Of a stretch of DNA of 42,925 nt, positions 4,527 to 11,289 are shown in pieces; position 1 is the stretch's first letter; each line of letters opens with the position of its first letter. The translations under genes were made by a program, and so were the position numbers. Source of the stretch: Sulfurovum sp. (lineage in GTDB: Bacteria > Campylobacterota > Campylobacteria > Campylobacterales > Sulfurovaceae); NCBI GenBank assembly GCA_027019175.1, contig JALUXB010000054.1, positions 1 to 42,925 of the forward strand. Reading direction: 5' to 3'. The notes under the pieces were generated by a model, which searched no databases, was not told where the DNA came from, and saw only the letters and a list, made by a program, of their open reading frames with translations.

Positions 4527-4564
4527 GGGTAAAACTATACAGAATGACAGTTAACGGAGCGTAT

Positions 4565-5359
4565 ATGAAGACGATAACGGGGATATTTTTTGTTTCGGTA
4601 TGGCTTATGGGGGCGTCGTTGAACATTTCGCAGCAACAGGCAGCCTATATTGCGAAGAAGATATGGCAAAACGAGGGTGCGGGTCAAGACAAGTATCTTG
4701 TATGGTGGAACAAGGGAGAGGATTTTGCTTCCGTAGGTATTGGACATTTCATTTGGTTTCCGAAGGGGCATACGGAACGCTTCAGAGAAGTTTTCCCCAT
4801 GGTAGTGGACTACATGCAGCAGGAGGGTGTGGCAATGCCCTCATGGCTGACCCCTCAGACAGACTTGCCCTGGCAGACGAAAGAGATATTTTTTAAGGCT
4901 AAAAAAGCCAAAACCAAGCGTTATAGAGAACTTTTTTCATTTCTGAAACGAACGATGCCTCAACAGGCAGCGTTTATGGCACAGCGTACAGCCAATGCTC
5001 TTCCGCAGATGCTTGAGAAGATTGACGATCCGAAAAAAGCGGATGTCATCAAACATCGGTTCGAGCATATGCTCTACAAAAAAGACGGCAGTATTGATGA
5101 GAGGGGACTCTACATTCTCATTGACTATACCAATTTCAAAGGAGAAGGTACCCTTGAGAGTGAACGCTACAAAGGGCAGGGATGGGGACTGCTGCAGGTG
5201 CTTGAACACTTCAATGAACACAACCCGAACAAATATAAAGCATTTTCCAATGCCGCCAAAGCGATGCTTGAGAGGCGTATCAGAAACTCGCCACCTGCAA
5301 GAGGTGAGAAACGCTGGCGAAGAGGGTGGTTCAAGCGGTTGGATACTTATTGGAAATAA
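4565..5359 (+). CDS. Conserved exported protein of unknown function, lysozyme-like motif
   Basis: The chosen ATG follows GGAG at a six-base spacing; an in-frame ATG at 4544 has no ribosome site and would spoil the signal peptide. The 264-residue product begins with a signal peptide (KTITGIFFVSVWLMGASLN). After it comes KKIWQNEGAG...WWNKGEDFASVGIGHFIWFP, which recalls the Glu plus GIGH arrangement of phage-type lysozymes, and then DYTNFKGEG and GQGWGLLQVLE blocks near residues 190-225. I recognise these blocks as belonging to a conserved family of bacterial periplasmic proteins without an assigned function. A peptidoglycan-acting role fits the GIGH motif but is inference. The C-terminus is strongly basic (ERRIRNSPP...KRWRRGWFKR). 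Confidence 0.75.
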   Translation: MKTITGIFFVSVWLMGASLNISQQQAAYIAKKIWQNEGAGQDKYLVWWNKGEDFASVGIGHFIWFPKGHTERFREVFPMVVDYMQQEGVAMPSWLTPQTDLPWQTKEIFFKAKKAKTKRYRELFSFLKRTMPQQAAFMAQRTANALPQMLEKIDDPKKADVIKHRFEHMLYKKDGSIDERGLYILIDYTNFKGEGTLESERYKGQGWGLLQVLEHFNEHNPNKYKAFSNAAKAMLERRIRNSPPARGEKRWRRGWFKRLDTYWK

Positions 5360-5538: not shown

Positions 5539-6015
5539 ATGATACGAAAAAAAATTCTATTGCTCGGCGATTTCAATGTTGGAAAGACAAGCCTTATCAG
5601 GCGTTATATTGACAATACGTTTGATGACAAATATTTAACAACCATCGGGGTAAAAATATCAAAAAAGTGTTTGCCTGTCGGTTCACTTGAGTGTGAATTG
5701 ATTATTTGGGATGTGGAGGGTGCGACACCCCAGAAACGGATACCGGAACAGTACCTGGTCGGTGCAAGCGGTGCTATTATCGTTGCGGATTGTAATAGAG
5801 AAGAGACGATGGCGAACCTTGAAGGACACATTGAGCGTTTCAAAGCGGTGAATCCTGACGGAAAATATGTTGTCGCCTACAATAAATCAGATCTGCTGAC
5901 ACCACAGCAGCTGGAGCATTTTCATATGATACCGGAAGGGGTTTTGACATCTGCAAAAAAAGGTGAGCATGTAAATCAGCTCTTTGGTACCCTTGCAAAG
6001 GAGATACTGTTATGA
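5539..6015 (+). CDS. Rab/Ras-like small GTPase
   Basis: This 158-residue soluble protein is a complete small G domain of the Rab type. G1 is GDFNVGKTS at residues 10-18, G2 is Thr35 within TTIGVK, G3 is WDVEG at 57-61, G4 is NKSD at 115-118 and G5 is TSAK at 137-140. The residue after the G3 glycine, where Ras and Rab have the catalytic Gln, is Ala62, so intrinsic GTP hydrolysis should be slow or depend on a partner. There is no C-terminal prenylation cysteine and no obvious membrane anchor. The TGA overlaps the ATG of the diguanylate cyclase at 6012 (ATGA), so the two are made together. Bacterial Rab-like GTPases with a GDF-x-VGKTS loop are known, but their roles are largely open. The ribosome site is weak (AAGG, 12 bases upstream). 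Confidence 0.93.
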   Translation: MIRKKILLLGDFNVGKTSLIRRYIDNTFDDKYLTTIGVKISKKCLPVGSLECELIIWDVEGATPQKRIPEQYLVGASGAIIVADCNREETMANLEGHIERFKAVNPDGKYVVAYNKSDLLTPQQLEHFHMIPEGVLTSAKKGEHVNQLFGTLAKEILL

Positions 6016-7190
6016 AAAATATTCAGATCATTCTCAATGCCATTCTTTCACAGGATGTGTTTGAATACATCCTGATCGACAAGGCATATCAGATAACAGA
6101 CTTATCTGAAAATGTTACCAGATATTTTGGCGAAACGGTTCATCGGGGGGATGATATCCGGGACTATTTACCGGAAATTGTAGGATATGAAGACCGGATC
6201 GAAACGGTATTGGAAGATGAAAAAAGCCGGTATGTGCTTGAAACCGTGTATAAAAACGACTACTACATTGACATCCATCTGGAACACTACAGTAAAGACA
6301 AAGTACTGATACTGCTTCACAATACCACTGAGATTACGTTGTCGAAACTGGAGCTCTTGCAGTACAGCAATGAAAATCAGCTGCTTTTCAATACCATCAA
6401 AAAGATTCTTGACAGTCAAAACAACCTTCTTGTTGTAACCAGCAACAATAAGATTGAATATGCCAACAAGAAATTTCTTGAATATTTCAGTTTGAAAAGT
6501 CTGGATGAACTGAAAGAGAGAAACGAAAACAACTTTTCGATCACTTCTCTTCCTGTCAGCAGTTTTGATGCACTTTACGAATATGCAAAAGAGGAAGAGA
6601 AAGAGTTGACAATAGGCGAAGACACGTTCCTTGTCAAGGCGACTCTCTTGGAAAAAACCTATAAACTGTTTACATTTTCCAAAATAACGAAACTGTGCGA
6701 TATCAATCGTGTGCTTGAAGAGAAGATCAACCGTGATCCTTTGACCGGACTTTACCGAAAATCCTTCTTTGATGAAAAACTGGCAGAAGCACTGGAGTAT
6801 GACCAGTCTGTAACACTGGTCATTGCTGATATTGACAATTTTAAAACGATCAATGACCGTTACGGGCATCTTGTCGGGGACAGAGCATTGAGAGAATTCG
6901 CCGATTTGGTCAGCAGTCAGCTGCGGGACAATGATCTGTTCGCCAGGTGGGGAGGAGAAGAGTTCCTCATACTTTTCAATTGCAGCAAGCAGGAAAAAAT
7001 TGTAGAAAAAATCGAAAGCATAAGAGAGATGGTAGACACACATGTTTTTGACGGTGTCGGACACCTTACTGTCAGTTTTGGTGTTGCAACATCCAAAGAA
7101 AACGATACGGTATATTCCTTACTGGAGAGGGCAGATAAAGCGCTTTATCTTGCCAAGAAAAAGGGTAAGAATATGGTTATTGTGGGTTAA
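6012..7190 (+). CDS. PAS-PAS-GGDEF diguanylate cyclase coupled to the GTPase
   Basis: The 392-residue cytoplasmic protein has no membrane segment. Residues 1-110 form a PAS-like sensor domain (FEYILIDKAYQI start, HNTTEIT end), residues about 130-230 a second PAS-like unit (NNKIEYANKKFLEYF), and residues about 240-392 a GGDEF domain. The active-site loop is GGEEF at 314-318 and an RxxD inhibitory site (RDND) stands at 305-308 with the usual five-residue spacing, so c-di-GMP synthesis with product feedback is expected. DIDNFKTINDRYGH carries the metal-binding Asp. Its start overlaps the GTPase stop. Since no membrane sensor is present, the likely input is the GTPase, binding the first PAS-like domain; this is inference from coupling. 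The TRAP gene follows 23 bases later. Confidence 0.93.
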   Translation: MKNIQIILNAILSQDVFEYILIDKAYQITDLSENVTRYFGETVHRGDDIRDYLPEIVGYEDRIETVLEDEKSRYVLETVYKNDYYIDIHLEHYSKDKVLILLHNTTEITLSKLELLQYSNENQLLFNTIKKILDSQNNLLVVTSNNKIEYANKKFLEYFSLKSLDELKERNENNFSITSLPVSSFDALYEYAKEEEKELTIGEDTFLVKATLLEKTYKLFTFSKITKLCDINRVLEEKINRDPLTGLYRKSFFDEKLAEALEYDQSVTLVIADIDNFKTINDRYGHLVGDRALREFADLVSSQLRDNDLFARWGGEEFLILFNCSKQEKIVEKIESIREMVDTHVFDGVGHLTVSFGVATSKENDTVYSLLERADKALYLAKKKGKNMVIVG

Positions 7191-7213: not shown

Positions 7214-9085
7214 ATGCATATTTCATATTACCTTGACCGTATCAGTAAATATGCCGGGCTTTTTGCTGCTGTACTGGTTGTTGCCCTTTCACTTCTGGTA
7301 GCCTATGATGCCATGATGCGCTACCTTTTTTCTGCAGGCTCGATCGCTTTGCAGGAGATGGAGTGGCACTTGTACGATATGGTCTTTCTATTGGGGCTCA
7401 GTTATGCACTCAAACACGGCAAGCACGTACGGGTCGATATTTTCTTCGAGCGTTATTCTCATGATACGAAAACGATTGTCCAGATACTTTCCATGCTGCT
7501 GTTGTTGTTGCCGTTTGCCATACTTTTCACTGCCGATGCCTATGATATGGCGCTTCAGAGCTACCTTCAGCATGAAGTTTCTCCTGATCCCGGTGGACTC
7601 GGTGCGCGCTGGTTCATCAAGGGCATATTGGTACTCTCGTTTATACTGCTGATACTGCAGGGGGTGAGTGAAATACTCAAGGCATACCATCAGCTTGAAA
7701 ACAAAAGAGTGCTTTGGCGTGTGCTGGGTGTTGTTGCTCTGTTTGGCGGGCTGATCTATGTGGCATGGTACCACCGTATGGCATTTTGGGTCGATCCTGT
7801 CTTTTTGATGTTCGCACTGGCACTCTTTTTGCTCTTAAGCGGTTTTCAGGTGGCATTTGTCTTTGGCGGTGTTGCGCTCTTTTTTGCACTTATTTCCGAT
7901 GAGGTAGGGTTGCATGTACTGGAGATGCTGCCGTACCGCACCTACGGTATTATGGGCAATGTGACACTGATGGCGGTACCGTTGTTCATTTTTATGGGGT
8001 TGATTCTCGAAAAGTCGAAGATGGCGGAAGAGTTGCTGCATTCCATGGGAAAACTCTTTGGATCAGTACGTGGAGGGCTTGCCGTTTCTGTGGTGCTGGT
8101 AGGTGCCATTTTGGCTGCAAGTACAGGGATTGTGGGGGCATCGGTGGTGATGATGAGCCTTATTGCCCTGCCGCTGATGCTCAAGCAGGGATACTCTCCG
8201 GCACTCTCAAGCGGTGCCATTGCGGCAAGTGGTACGCTGGGGCAGCTGATCCCCCCTTCCATCGTACTTATTGTACTTGGAGATCAGATGCACCTGAGTG
8301 TTGGTGATCTTTTCAAAGCGGCAATCGTGCCCGGATTGCTGCTTATTGTTTTGTACATTGTGTACATTCTCGGGTTTGCGTGGCTTAAAAGAGATGCTGC
8401 TCCGGCCATTGTTTCTGACGAGCCTTATGCAGTAGTAGCAAAGAGTGCGCTCAAAGCCATCATTCCGCCGCTGCTGCTCATCGGTGCGGTACTGGGTTCC
8501 ATCTTCGCCGGTATCGCGTCTCCTACAGAATCAGCAGCCATCGGTGTGCTTGGCGGTATGGCACTGGCAGCCTACAACAGAGTCATGAACTTCGAACTGC
8601 TGCGCTATGCGGCGGTGGAAACCGTTAAACTTACAGCGATGATCTTTATGATACTCATTGGGGCGACGGCTTTTTCACTGGTGTTTAACGAACTTGGCGG
8701 CGGAGATATGGCGCTGCACTTCTTTACCGGAGAGATCGGTGACAAGTGGATGTTTATTCTGATCGCCATGGCAGTGATCTTTCTTTTGGGCTTCTTCATC
8801 GACTTCATCGAGATTGCCTTTGTGGTCGTGCCTATTCTTGTACCTATTGTAGCCAGTTTCGGCATCGACCCGGTCTGGTTTGCCATACTTATCGCCATGA
8901 ACCTGCAGGCAAGCTTTCTTACGCCGCCCTTTGGTTTCGCACTTTTTTACCTCAAGGGTGCTGCGGGGGACAAAGTAACTACAGGTGCTATTTACAAAGG
9001 GGTCATTCCGTTTATTGCACTGCAGCTTGTAGCTCTCTTGATTATTGTACTCTTTCCGGGACTGATCTATCTGTTTGGGAAGTAG
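7214..9085 (+). CDS. TRAP transporter, fused small and large permease subunits (DctQM)
   Basis: TRAP transporters import carboxylates and related solutes using a periplasmic binding protein and an ion gradient. This 623-residue protein fuses both membrane parts: residues 1 to about 170 match DctQ (four helices, YDAMMRYLF, GLSYALKHGKHVRVDIF, and ARWFIKGI), and residues about 180-623 match the 12-helix DctM (FIFMGLILEKS, ASTGIVGASVVMMSLIALPLML, GTLGQLIPPSIVLIVL, GIASPTESAAIGVLG, FLTPPFGFALFYLKG). The usual binding protein gene (dctP) is absent on both sides, so it must be elsewhere or be shared. AGGA precedes the ATG. The 23-bp gap from the diguanylate cyclase suggests co-transcription. A terminator follows at 9124. 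The substrate cannot be read from the sequence. Confidence 0.93.
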   Translation: MHISYYLDRISKYAGLFAAVLVVALSLLVAYDAMMRYLFSAGSIALQEMEWHLYDMVFLLGLSYALKHGKHVRVDIFFERYSHDTKTIVQILSMLLLLLPFAILFTADAYDMALQSYLQHEVSPDPGGLGARWFIKGILVLSFILLILQGVSEILKAYHQLENKRVLWRVLGVVALFGGLIYVAWYHRMAFWVDPVFLMFALALFLLLSGFQVAFVFGGVALFFALISDEVGLHVLEMLPYRTYGIMGNVTLMAVPLFIFMGLILEKSKMAEELLHSMGKLFGSVRGGLAVSVVLVGAILAASTGIVGASVVMMSLIALPLMLKQGYSPALSSGAIAASGTLGQLIPPSIVLIVLGDQMHLSVGDLFKAAIVPGLLLIVLYIVYILGFAWLKRDAAPAIVSDEPYAVVAKSALKAIIPPLLLIGAVLGSIFAGIASPTESAAIGVLGGMALAAYNRVMNFELLRYAAVETVKLTAMIFMILIGATAFSLVFNELGGGDMALHFFTGEIGDKWMFILIAMAVIFLLGFFIDFIEIAFVVVPILVPIVASFGIDPVWFAILIAMNLQASFLTPPFGFALFYLKGAAGDKVTTGAIYKGVIPFIALQLVALLIIVLFPGLIYLFGK

Positions 9086-9156: not shown

Positions 9157-11289
9157 CTATTTTTCATACGGGAAGGTTAAATAGTTACTGCCTGTCTGTC
9201 CGCTTTTCAGAAGAATCCAAAAGCCGACCATTGGATCGATGCGGTCTGTAAATCCCGGTGTGTCCGGGGTAATGGCAACATAATTCGTGTTGCTGGTACC
9301 GGTATGTTCATAGGTATATACTGTTGGTTTTATATAGGGGGCATTGGGGCTGTTGCTGTCGGTACTCATGGGATTATAGCTGCCGCTGCTGCCACCGTGG
9401 GAAAAGTAGATGTCGGAGAGCTGCATTTTTTTGGGGAAAGGATTTCCCATCATGATCTTTTTACTGTTTGCACTGTCAGAATCCGGCAATCGGGTCAGGT
9501 TGAGATCATCAAACACACTGCTCGATATGCCAAGATTGGAGGCAGGCTGTACTGCGGTGTAGTTCAGTCCGCTAAGGGTAGTATCGATAGTCAGGTTTGC
9601 ATCCTGGGCACTGATGATCCAGTAGCCTTTCCCCGGCTGTACCGGATCTGTACTGTCAAGCATTCTTTTTTGCGTGTTGGTACCGATATAGTCATCAGCA
9701 CCGGTTTGCTCATACATTACCCAGTCGGCATTGTCACCATAGGTACCGAGTGCATTGCCCATAAGAGCCTCTATACCGTTGCTGCCTGTATCACAGGGAA
9801 TACTGATAAGTGTCCAGTGCATGGCACTCAGATGGCGTTCTACCTCCTCACAGGGGGCAGGGCAGTGTTTTCCTGCATCGCGAATATCCCAGTTGTAGGT
9901 ATCGATAATGTTTTGTCTCGCAGTTTCTCCGTCACAGTAGGTACTGTTGCCGGCATCAAACCGTTCATCGCTGCTCAGTGAAAGGTTTTGCCATGCTTTG
10001 AGCAAAGCGTCATAATTGTAAGTCGAGAGTTTTGCACCCGTAAGAAAGTTGACAAAGTTTGTAACATTGCTGACATCCCAGTATTCGAGATTACGGTCAA
10101 AAGCAACGGCATCTTGAAACATGCTCGCCATCGTGGTTACACTGGAAACATCCCAGTTGGTCACGTCAGGGTTGGCATGTGTCGCACCGTTAAACATACT
10201 GAGCATGGAGGTAACCTGACTGACATCCCAGTTGGTCACATCAGGGTTGGCACTGACAGCACCGCGGAACATGGCTCGCATTGTTGTTACATTGGACGTA
10301 TCCCATCCGCTCGTATTTGGTGTCGCGGCTGATGCATTTTTAAACATGGCCCGCATCGTCGTGGCACTCGAAGTATTCCATCCTCCTGTATCAGGGGTGG
10401 CAAGAGGTGCATCCTGGAACATATAGGCGAAGCTGGTGACACTGGACGTATTCCAAATATTGCCGTTGGTTGTTGTTACCGGTGTAGCACTGCTTGCACC
10501 ATAGAACATCCCATACATTGTAGTGACGTTAGCTGTGTCCCATCCGCTTACATCGGGGTTTGCATTGACCGCATCGCGGAACATATTGTTCATCTTTGTA
10601 ACATTGGCTGTATCCCATCCGCTTACATCGGGGTTTGCCTGTGTTGCGCCCCAGAACATGGCATCCATCCGTGTGACATTGGCTGTGTTCCATCCGCTTA
10701 CATCCGGGTTGGCACTGGCTGCATTGCGAAACATATAGGAGAGGTTGGTAATGTTGGATATGTCCCACCCGGCTGTTTTGATATCGCCATTGGCACATCC
10801 CTGAAACATCGCCCTCAGGTTGCTTACCTCAGAAAGATCAGGTGTATCAGTCGGTGTAGAGGTTAAGTTGACTGCTCCCCGGTATGCAGAAGCCATACTT
10901 GACCACACTTCAGTTCCCCATTGGTTGATTTCAATGAGTTTTTCTGCATCGGTTTGGGTGGTACTGTTAACATAAAAACGGATACGGCGAAAACCTTTAC
11001 GGTCTGCATTGTTGTTGTCTTTGACACGGATGGTATAGGTGCCTGCACTGCTGTAGACACAGGTATAGTCGCTGTTCCCGGTAATCCCTGTAGCTTCGTC
11101 TATGCCGTCATTGTTGCAGTCTACATTGTACCCGTTACCGCTTGTCCGGGTAATGGGGATGGTAAATTCATTATTGTTGGATACCCCGGGATTGTCTGTT
11201 TTGACGGTGATCACATAGTCATCTGCGGGAGCGGCGAACAGCACCGTGGTACCACAAACTATGAAAAAGTATGCAATTTTTTGTTTCAT
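9157..11289 (-). CDS. BspA-like (DUF285) repeat surface protein
   Basis: This 710-residue exported protein starts with a signal peptide (KIAYFFIVCGTTVLFAAPA). Residues about 25-110 form a beta-rich N-terminal domain with an EF-hand-like stretch (DCNNDGIDE). From about 145 to 430 there are ten or eleven repeats of 26 residues on the pattern NPDVSGWDTANVTxMxxMF, the BspA/DUF285 type found in adhesins and surface proteins. The remaining 260 residues hold a Cys-bearing region and a beta-rich domain (WTLISIP, GKGYWIIS, VGFWILLKSG) of a type often found at the C-terminus of secreted epsilonproteobacterial proteins. No sortase motif or autotransporter barrel is evident. GGGAG stands seven bases before the ATG. 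Repeat units differ clearly in DNA, so they are old. A role in adhesion or surface contact is inferred from the family. Confidence 0.88.
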   Translation of the reverse strand: MKQKIAYFFIVCGTTVLFAAPADDYVITVKTDNPGVSNNNEFTIPITRTSGNGYNVDCNNDGIDEATGITGNSDYTCVYSSAGTYTIRVKDNNNADRKGFRRIRFYVNSTTQTDAEKLIEINQWGTEVWSSMASAYRGAVNLTSTPTDTPDLSEVSNLRAMFQGCANGDIKTAGWDISNITNLSYMFRNAASANPDVSGWNTANVTRMDAMFWGATQANPDVSGWDTANVTKMNNMFRDAVNANPDVSGWDTANVTTMYGMFYGASSATPVTTTNGNIWNTSSVTSFAYMFQDAPLATPDTGGWNTSSATTMRAMFKNASAATPNTSGWDTSNVTTMRAMFRGAVSANPDVTNWDVSQVTSMLSMFNGATHANPDVTNWDVSSVTTMASMFQDAVAFDRNLEYWDVSNVTNFVNFLTGAKLSTYNYDALLKAWQNLSLSSDERFDAGNSTYCDGETARQNIIDTYNWDIRDAGKHCPAPCEEVERHLSAMHWTLISIPCDTGSNGIEALMGNALGTYGDNADWVMYEQTGADDYIGTNTQKRMLDSTDPVQPGKGYWIISAQDANLTIDTTLSGLNYTAVQPASNLGISSSVFDDLNLTRLPDSDSANSKKIMMGNPFPKKMQLSDIYFSHGGSSGSYNPMSTDSNSPNAPYIKPTVYTYEHTGTSNTNYVAITPDTPGFTDRIDPMVGFWILLKSGQTGSNYLTFPYEK

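Follow-up and report, generated by a model that had tools for sequence, protein, structure and literature searches.

The Group 1 Rup small GTPases, defined by Wuichet and Sogaard-Andersen (2014; PMC4316618), lack the glutamine of the G3 motif. In that survey, three kinds of gene neighbor theirs: those for a coiled-coil protein, for an OmpA protein, and for an output protein that is either a diguanylate cyclase/phosphodiesterase or a kinase. The N-terminal domain of the output protein bears an invariant glutamine, and a signaling complex with a trans-acting glutamine was proposed without experiment (PMC4316618). This prediction was made independently of the present analysis, from gene neighborhoods. 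A search for experiments on Rup GTPases or on GTPase-gated diguanylate cyclases, within a literature coverage that leaves out most subscription papers and preprints, returned the 2014 survey only.

The window analyzed here, a stretch of 42,925 nucleotides from Sulfurovum sp. (contig JALUXB010000054.1), carries a GTPase gene followed by a diguanylate cyclase gene, and the pair is assigned to the Group 1 Rup small-GTPase systems. The features of the pair are as follows:

5539..6015, plus strand: Rup Group 1-type small GTPase with a Ras/Rab fold, 158 aa (open reading frame, Pfam, comparison with solved chains)
5566..5589, plus strand: G1/P-loop, GDFNVGKT (G10, G15, K16, T17, and S18 invariant)
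5710..5724, plus strand: G3, DVEG, then Ala at the position of the Ras/Rab catalytic Gln (alignment)
5881..5892, plus strand: G4, NKSD (alignment)
5950..5958, plus strand: G5, SAK (alignment)
5997..6003, plus strand: Shine-Dalgarno-like AAAGGAG of the cyclase, 8 nt upstream of its ATG and within the GTPase gene (sequence)
6012..6015, plus strand: ATGA stop-start overlap (open reading frame coordinates)
6012..7190, plus strand: soluble diguanylate cyclase composed of N-domain, PAS, and GGDEF, 392 aa (open reading frame, Pfam, conserved motifs)
6012..6386, plus strand: N-terminal PAS-like putative receiver/docking domain, residues 1-125 (family comparison)
6360..6371, plus strand: conserved motif Q117-x-x-N120, where the linking helix begins (alignment; PMC4316618)
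6396..6686, right border approximate, plus strand: second PAS domain (residues 129-168 match Pfam PAS_8)
6714..7181, plus strand: GGDEF domain, with the I-site RDND at 6924-6935 and GGEEF at 6951-6965 (Pfam, motifs)

The GTPase matches the Pfam Ras family at 2e-23, and the solved chains nearest to it are Sec4/Rab1. A homologue model compared with Rab chains gives a Z of about 23, the fold thus being shown on a cyanobacterial homologue. The original prediction of a complete eukaryote-type GTPase holds for the Ras/Rab fold and for the motifs G1 (GDFNVGKT), G3 (DVEG), G4 (NKSD), and G5 (SAK), all of which are intact, but not for two other hallmarks: the catalytic glutamine of G3 is replaced by alanine (WDVEGA), and the C-terminus, which ends in LAKEILL, has no prenylation cysteine. 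Throughout the family, the position after DxxG is mostly occupied by H, S, A, or G. Glutamine is found there in a minority of the GTPases, and its absence is therefore not universal in the clade.

The cyclase matches GGDEF in Pfam at 1e-39. As predicted, it contains no membrane-like segment and has both an intact GGEEF (residues 314-318) and an intact RxxD (RDND, residues 305-308). Together with D273, D275, N281, and D282, these motifs conserve the metal, substrate, and I-site residues, such that the protein has, as judged from its sequence, the motifs of an active diguanylate cyclase. A search of the source genome for a PilZ receptor found none.

The four-base ATGA overlap of the two reading frames was confirmed. 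Such overlaps are common in bacterial operons. To call the expression of the pair translationally fused goes too far; since the cyclase ATG is preceded by its own good Shine-Dalgarno sequence, translational coupling of the two genes is likely but not obligatory. A promoter scan gave a result at chance level.

The N-terminal domain of the cyclase had been predicted to be PAS-like; its first 125 residues are here called the N-domain. Pfam does not bear this out for residues 1-125 of the window protein alone, to which no PAS family matches, the PAS domain that Pfam does recognize being the second one, from residue 129. At the level of the family, however, the predicted order of strands and helices is PAS-like, PAS_9 matches weakly in 7 of 56 members (best 0.0076), and there is a weak match to PDB 3a0v (E 0.82), so that the fold is probably PAS-like. 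Q117, conserved in 95% of 154 pairs, lies in the linking helix, 11 residues past the conserved T106 of the last strand of the N-domain, and N120 is conserved as well. Q117 is probably the invariant glutamine described in PMC4316618, and a signaling role for it in the linking helix is plausible.

Conservation of the pair beyond close relatives, which the original prediction had put forward as a check, is found across phyla: 154 distinct pairs of a GTPase and a downstream N-domain protein occur in Campylobacterota and Cyanobacteria, most with gaps below 80 nt. Within the family of the window (175 genomes), 39 genomes have the GTPase and 41 the N-domain, and every one of the 39 has both. Close relatives of the GTPase are encoded in Sulfurovum, other Campylobacterota, many cyanobacteria, and rhizobial plasmids. 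Relatives are also carried by Nostoc and Mesorhizobium, two genera named in PMC4316618. Related GTPases are present in 234 of 391 sampled genomes of one cyanobacterial order and are rare in Campylobacterota, where a search of 298 complete genomes gave matches in 9, in one case only to long proteins that match weakly.

The pairing of GTPase and N-domain is strong but not universal. Among cyanobacterial GTPases with enough downstream sequence, at least 25 have no adjacent N-domain output, and the GTPase can therefore be encoded away from its output. At two campylobacterotal loci (L055 and L253), the gene after the GTPase has an N-terminus that is not recognized by the N-domain profile; the L055 gene is a GGDEF cyclase. 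The Mesorhizobium plasmid pWSM1497 carries an operon (L272:1252-6569) encoding a hypothetical protein, an OmpA protein, a Rab family GTPase, and an adenylate/guanylate cyclase, whose N-terminus likewise escapes the N-domain profile.

The enzyme behind the N-domain varies. Scanning of 100 outputs gave 38 with GGDEF, 34 with a histidine-kinase ATPase, 12 with a class III nucleotide cyclase, and 5 with SpoIIE, the rest at least in part ending at the edge of the sampled locus. Outputs of at least these four catalytic classes thus share the N-domain, whereas the original prediction had considered GGDEF alone. A GTPase tree of 89 pairs, their labels checked, implies 15 or more switches of output class; for this count, the class III cyclase label, provisional for a cluster of 15 outputs, was restricted to Pfam-verified loci. 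In the Campylobacterota clade of the window, the partnership with diguanylate cyclases is stable: all 21 GTPases, which form one supported set, are paired with GGDEF. Because the N-domain persists through these exchanges of enzyme, it is most simply interpreted as a receiver for the GTPase, an adaptor that would read the switch rather than the catalytic domain.

At five cyanobacterial loci (L116, L087, L127, L130, and L171), the gene after the GTPase encodes an N-domain joined to a SpoIIE-type phosphatase. The GTPases of all five have the G3 catalytic glutamine, and they form one supported set on the tree.

Structure prediction of the GTPase with the N-domain was carried out with AlphaFold2 on a single-chain tandem, for which a homologue with both genes in the same frame was used and the intergenic stop was read as Gly, so that the domains are tethered. 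The tandem of the cyanobacterial locus L160 (143 aligned rows) reached a pTM of 0.79 and a mean pLDDT of 85.9, with the linker below 50; these figures are those of the best of five models, the other four being lower (pLDDT 78-81 vs 86). In a control of the same design, the same GTPase joined to the upstream OmpA domain gave a pTM of 0.61 and a pLDDT of 88.0, and two independently placed domains of such size are estimated by the author to give a pTM of about 0.5. This one test with its one control supports a defined placement of the GTPase and N-domain in the cyanobacterial homologue. The support concerns the relative placement of the two domains in that homologue and not the window proteins themselves, and the interface is not located. 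A structure search with the tandem model returned matches filled by Rab chains. Mean-field coupling over 153 paired sequences was set aside as evidence, as the effective number of sequences is about 97 and the top pairs are probably driven by ancestry.

A G-protein-gated diguanylate cyclase, with the GTPase docking on the PAS-like N-domain, is the best explanation of these observations and is held with moderate confidence. In one nucleotide state, most likely GTP, the GTPase would dock on the N-domain, and the signal would pass through the linking helix with Q117 and N120 to the second PAS domain and then to the GGDEF dimer, altering c-di-GMP synthesis, which the RxxD inhibitory site would limit. 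Because the GTPase of the window lacks the G3 catalytic glutamine, its GTP hydrolysis would probably be slow unless assisted, and the ON state would therefore be long-lived, persisting until terminated by a regulator. This role would probably fall to the transmembrane OmpA-family protein encoded upstream of the GTPase in related operons, the periplasmic OmpA domain of which should report the cell wall's state or position. The G-protein switch for c-di-GMP that was originally predicted accordingly finds backing in the conserved pairing and in the placement seen in the homologue tandem. The idea is not new (PMC4316618), and docking and activation are proposed steps.

The roles of the two proteins could also be reversed, though this is unlikely. 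The cyclase would then stand upstream, its N-domain being a GAP (or GEF) that supplies Q117, and the GTPase would be the main output and act through a separate effector. A GTPase devoid of the G3 glutamine next to a partner with a conserved one (Q117, 95%) is what such a scheme predicts, as proposed in PMC4316618. Yet the partner glutamine is kept in 17 of the 17 aligned pairs in which the GTPase has the G3 glutamine, and there is no trade-off between the two, contrary to what would be expected if one glutamine simply substituted for the other. This result argues only mildly against a trans-acting glutamine, since two changes on the tree may already account for the G3 glutamine and the test is weak. 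The cyanobacterial locus L131 has histidine both in place of the partner glutamine and at G3 of the GTPase, and the partner glutamine is thus not indispensable. The many catalytic outputs behind one N-domain likewise argue that the enzymes are the outputs.

Mutual regulation, to which a similarly low probability is given, would combine both directions: the GTP-bound GTPase would activate the cyclase while the N-domain speeds hydrolysis, resulting in a self-limiting pulse of c-di-GMP. The combination of a conserved glutamine in the effector domain and a missing one in the switch suits this arrangement, in which the effector would itself have GAP activity, whereas the two glutamine positions do not trade off.

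Mere co-transcription, with the GTPase acting on localization or another process and the cyclase sensing a ligand via its PAS domains, would accord with the commonness of ATGA overlaps, the ribosome-binding site of the cyclase, and the GTPases without an adjacent output, but it is very improbable given that the two genes remain neighbors in different phyla with a varying catalytic domain and only the N-domain constant, that co-occurrence is 39 of 39, and that the L160 docking model lies well above its control.

Neither the OmpA and coiled-coil partner genes nor a second system in the same genome figured in the original prediction; both were found here. In relatives (L033, L034, L046, L047, and L050), the gene order is coiled-coil protein, OmpA protein, GTPase, and diguanylate cyclase. 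The OmpA protein encoded upstream combines a conserved N-terminal region (179 distinct copies), one likely membrane segment, and a C-terminal OmpA domain; by the usual topology, its N-terminal part would be cytoplasmic and its C-terminal part periplasmic. Within the cytoplasmic part, the final 140 residues match Fuz_longin_1 weakly in 4 of 42 members (best 0.0064) and also weakly match the TRAPP subunit Bet5 in the PDB (E 0.26). With hhalign, they match Robl_LC7 at an E of 0.0009 and a probability of 23%, as compared with 0.2-1.2% for unrelated control profiles. Roadblock and longin domains are the usual regulators of small GTPases. The convergent matches hint at a weak roadblock/longin resemblance, by which the cytoplasmic part may be regarded as a candidate GEF/GAP. 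In the source genome, no match to Robl_LC7 was found.

The source genome has one OmpA input protein and two GTPase-output pairs, and the pair of the window is the one without an input of its own. The second system, on contig 32 (L045:2766-6958), comprises a coiled-coil protein, the OmpA protein with one membrane segment, a second GTPase that is 46% identical to that of the window, and a histidine kinase that bears the same N-domain. Of 14 genomes examined, 12 encode exactly one OmpA input protein, among them all five that have two GTPase genes; the other 2, in which no copy was found, are 65% and 75% complete. In one relative (G009), all six genes form a single cluster (L049), while in another (G024), the diguanylate cyclase pair is accompanied by coiled-coil and OmpA genes of its own (L046). 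Because the sole OmpA copy of the source genome sits with the second GTPase and the histidine kinase, one input probably feeds two branches. The pair of the window may have lost its private input and come to share the remaining OmpA protein, which would place c-di-GMP and a phosphorelay under one envelope protein.

The place of the coiled-coil and OmpA genes of the relatives is occupied in the window by a gene (4544-5359), directly upstream of the pair, for a 271-residue protein with no Pfam match at the cut-off; a 271-residue gene lies at the same place in L030. Downstream, 7214-9085 encodes a 623-residue protein that looks by its sequence like a fused TRAP-type transporter, and a gene of the same length directly follows the pair in L029, L030, and L046. 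On the minus strand, 9157-11289 encodes a 710-residue protein with many DVSGWDTANVT-type repeats, which by eye resembles BspA-like surface proteins.

A wider scheme is advanced tentatively and may well prove incorrect. The N-domain would be a general G-protein receiver through which one family of bacterial Rab-like GTPases drives exchangeable enzymes of the four classes, a transmembrane peptidoglycan-binding protein would serve as the GEF/GAP, and in the source genome one receptor would direct both c-di-GMP and a phosphorelay via two paralogous GTPases. If true, this would be a bacterial G-protein-coupled second-messenger pathway, analogous to the chain of hormone receptor, G protein, and cyclase, built from Rab-like parts. 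Such parts are close to the proposed source of the eukaryotic Ras/Rab proteins (PMC4316618). The Rup GTPases would in turn acquire an effector domain and a candidate regulator, and a simple assay would become available for them.

Compared with the described Group 1 Rup systems, the pair of the window shares a single-domain Ras-superfamily GTPase, a G3 DxxG without glutamine, the NKxD motif, and an output N-domain with a conserved glutamine, and the four-gene neighborhood recurs in the five relatives noted above and in the second locus of the source genome. It differs in that the locus consists of GTPase and output only, without adjoining OmpA or coiled-coil genes, and in that the output has GGDEF alone, whereas diguanylate cyclase/phosphodiesterase fusions or kinases are described in the main text of PMC4316618. 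That main text likewise mentions neither class III cyclase or SpoIIE outputs nor the roadblock/longin resemblance. New here are the four kinds of enzyme on one putative docking domain, their repeated swaps, and a controlled structural hint, as well as a candidate roadblock/longin regulator and the layout of one input and two outputs, the last as a prediction.

The MglA/MglB/RomR polarity system likewise combines a bacterial Ras-like switch, a regulator of the roadblock type, and two-component links. However, MglA has TVPGQ or GTPGQ at G3 (PMC4316618) and MglB is soluble, whereas the GTPase of the window has DxEG without glutamine and its candidate regulator, an OmpA protein, is transmembrane. 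In the actinobacterial conservons (CvnA-D), a small GTPase is similarly encoded with a signaling kinase and partner proteins. There, the GTPase belongs to MglA Group 2 and is accompanied by an MglB homologue (PMC4316618), while here the output enzyme bears the putative docking domain. The likeness to eukaryotic Rab/Ras proteins lies in the fold, and the likeness to G-protein-activated adenylyl cyclase lies in the proposal that a G protein gates a cyclase. In contrast, the GTPase of the window has neither the catalytic glutamine nor a prenylation cysteine, its putative effector domain is PAS-like, and c-di-GMP is made.
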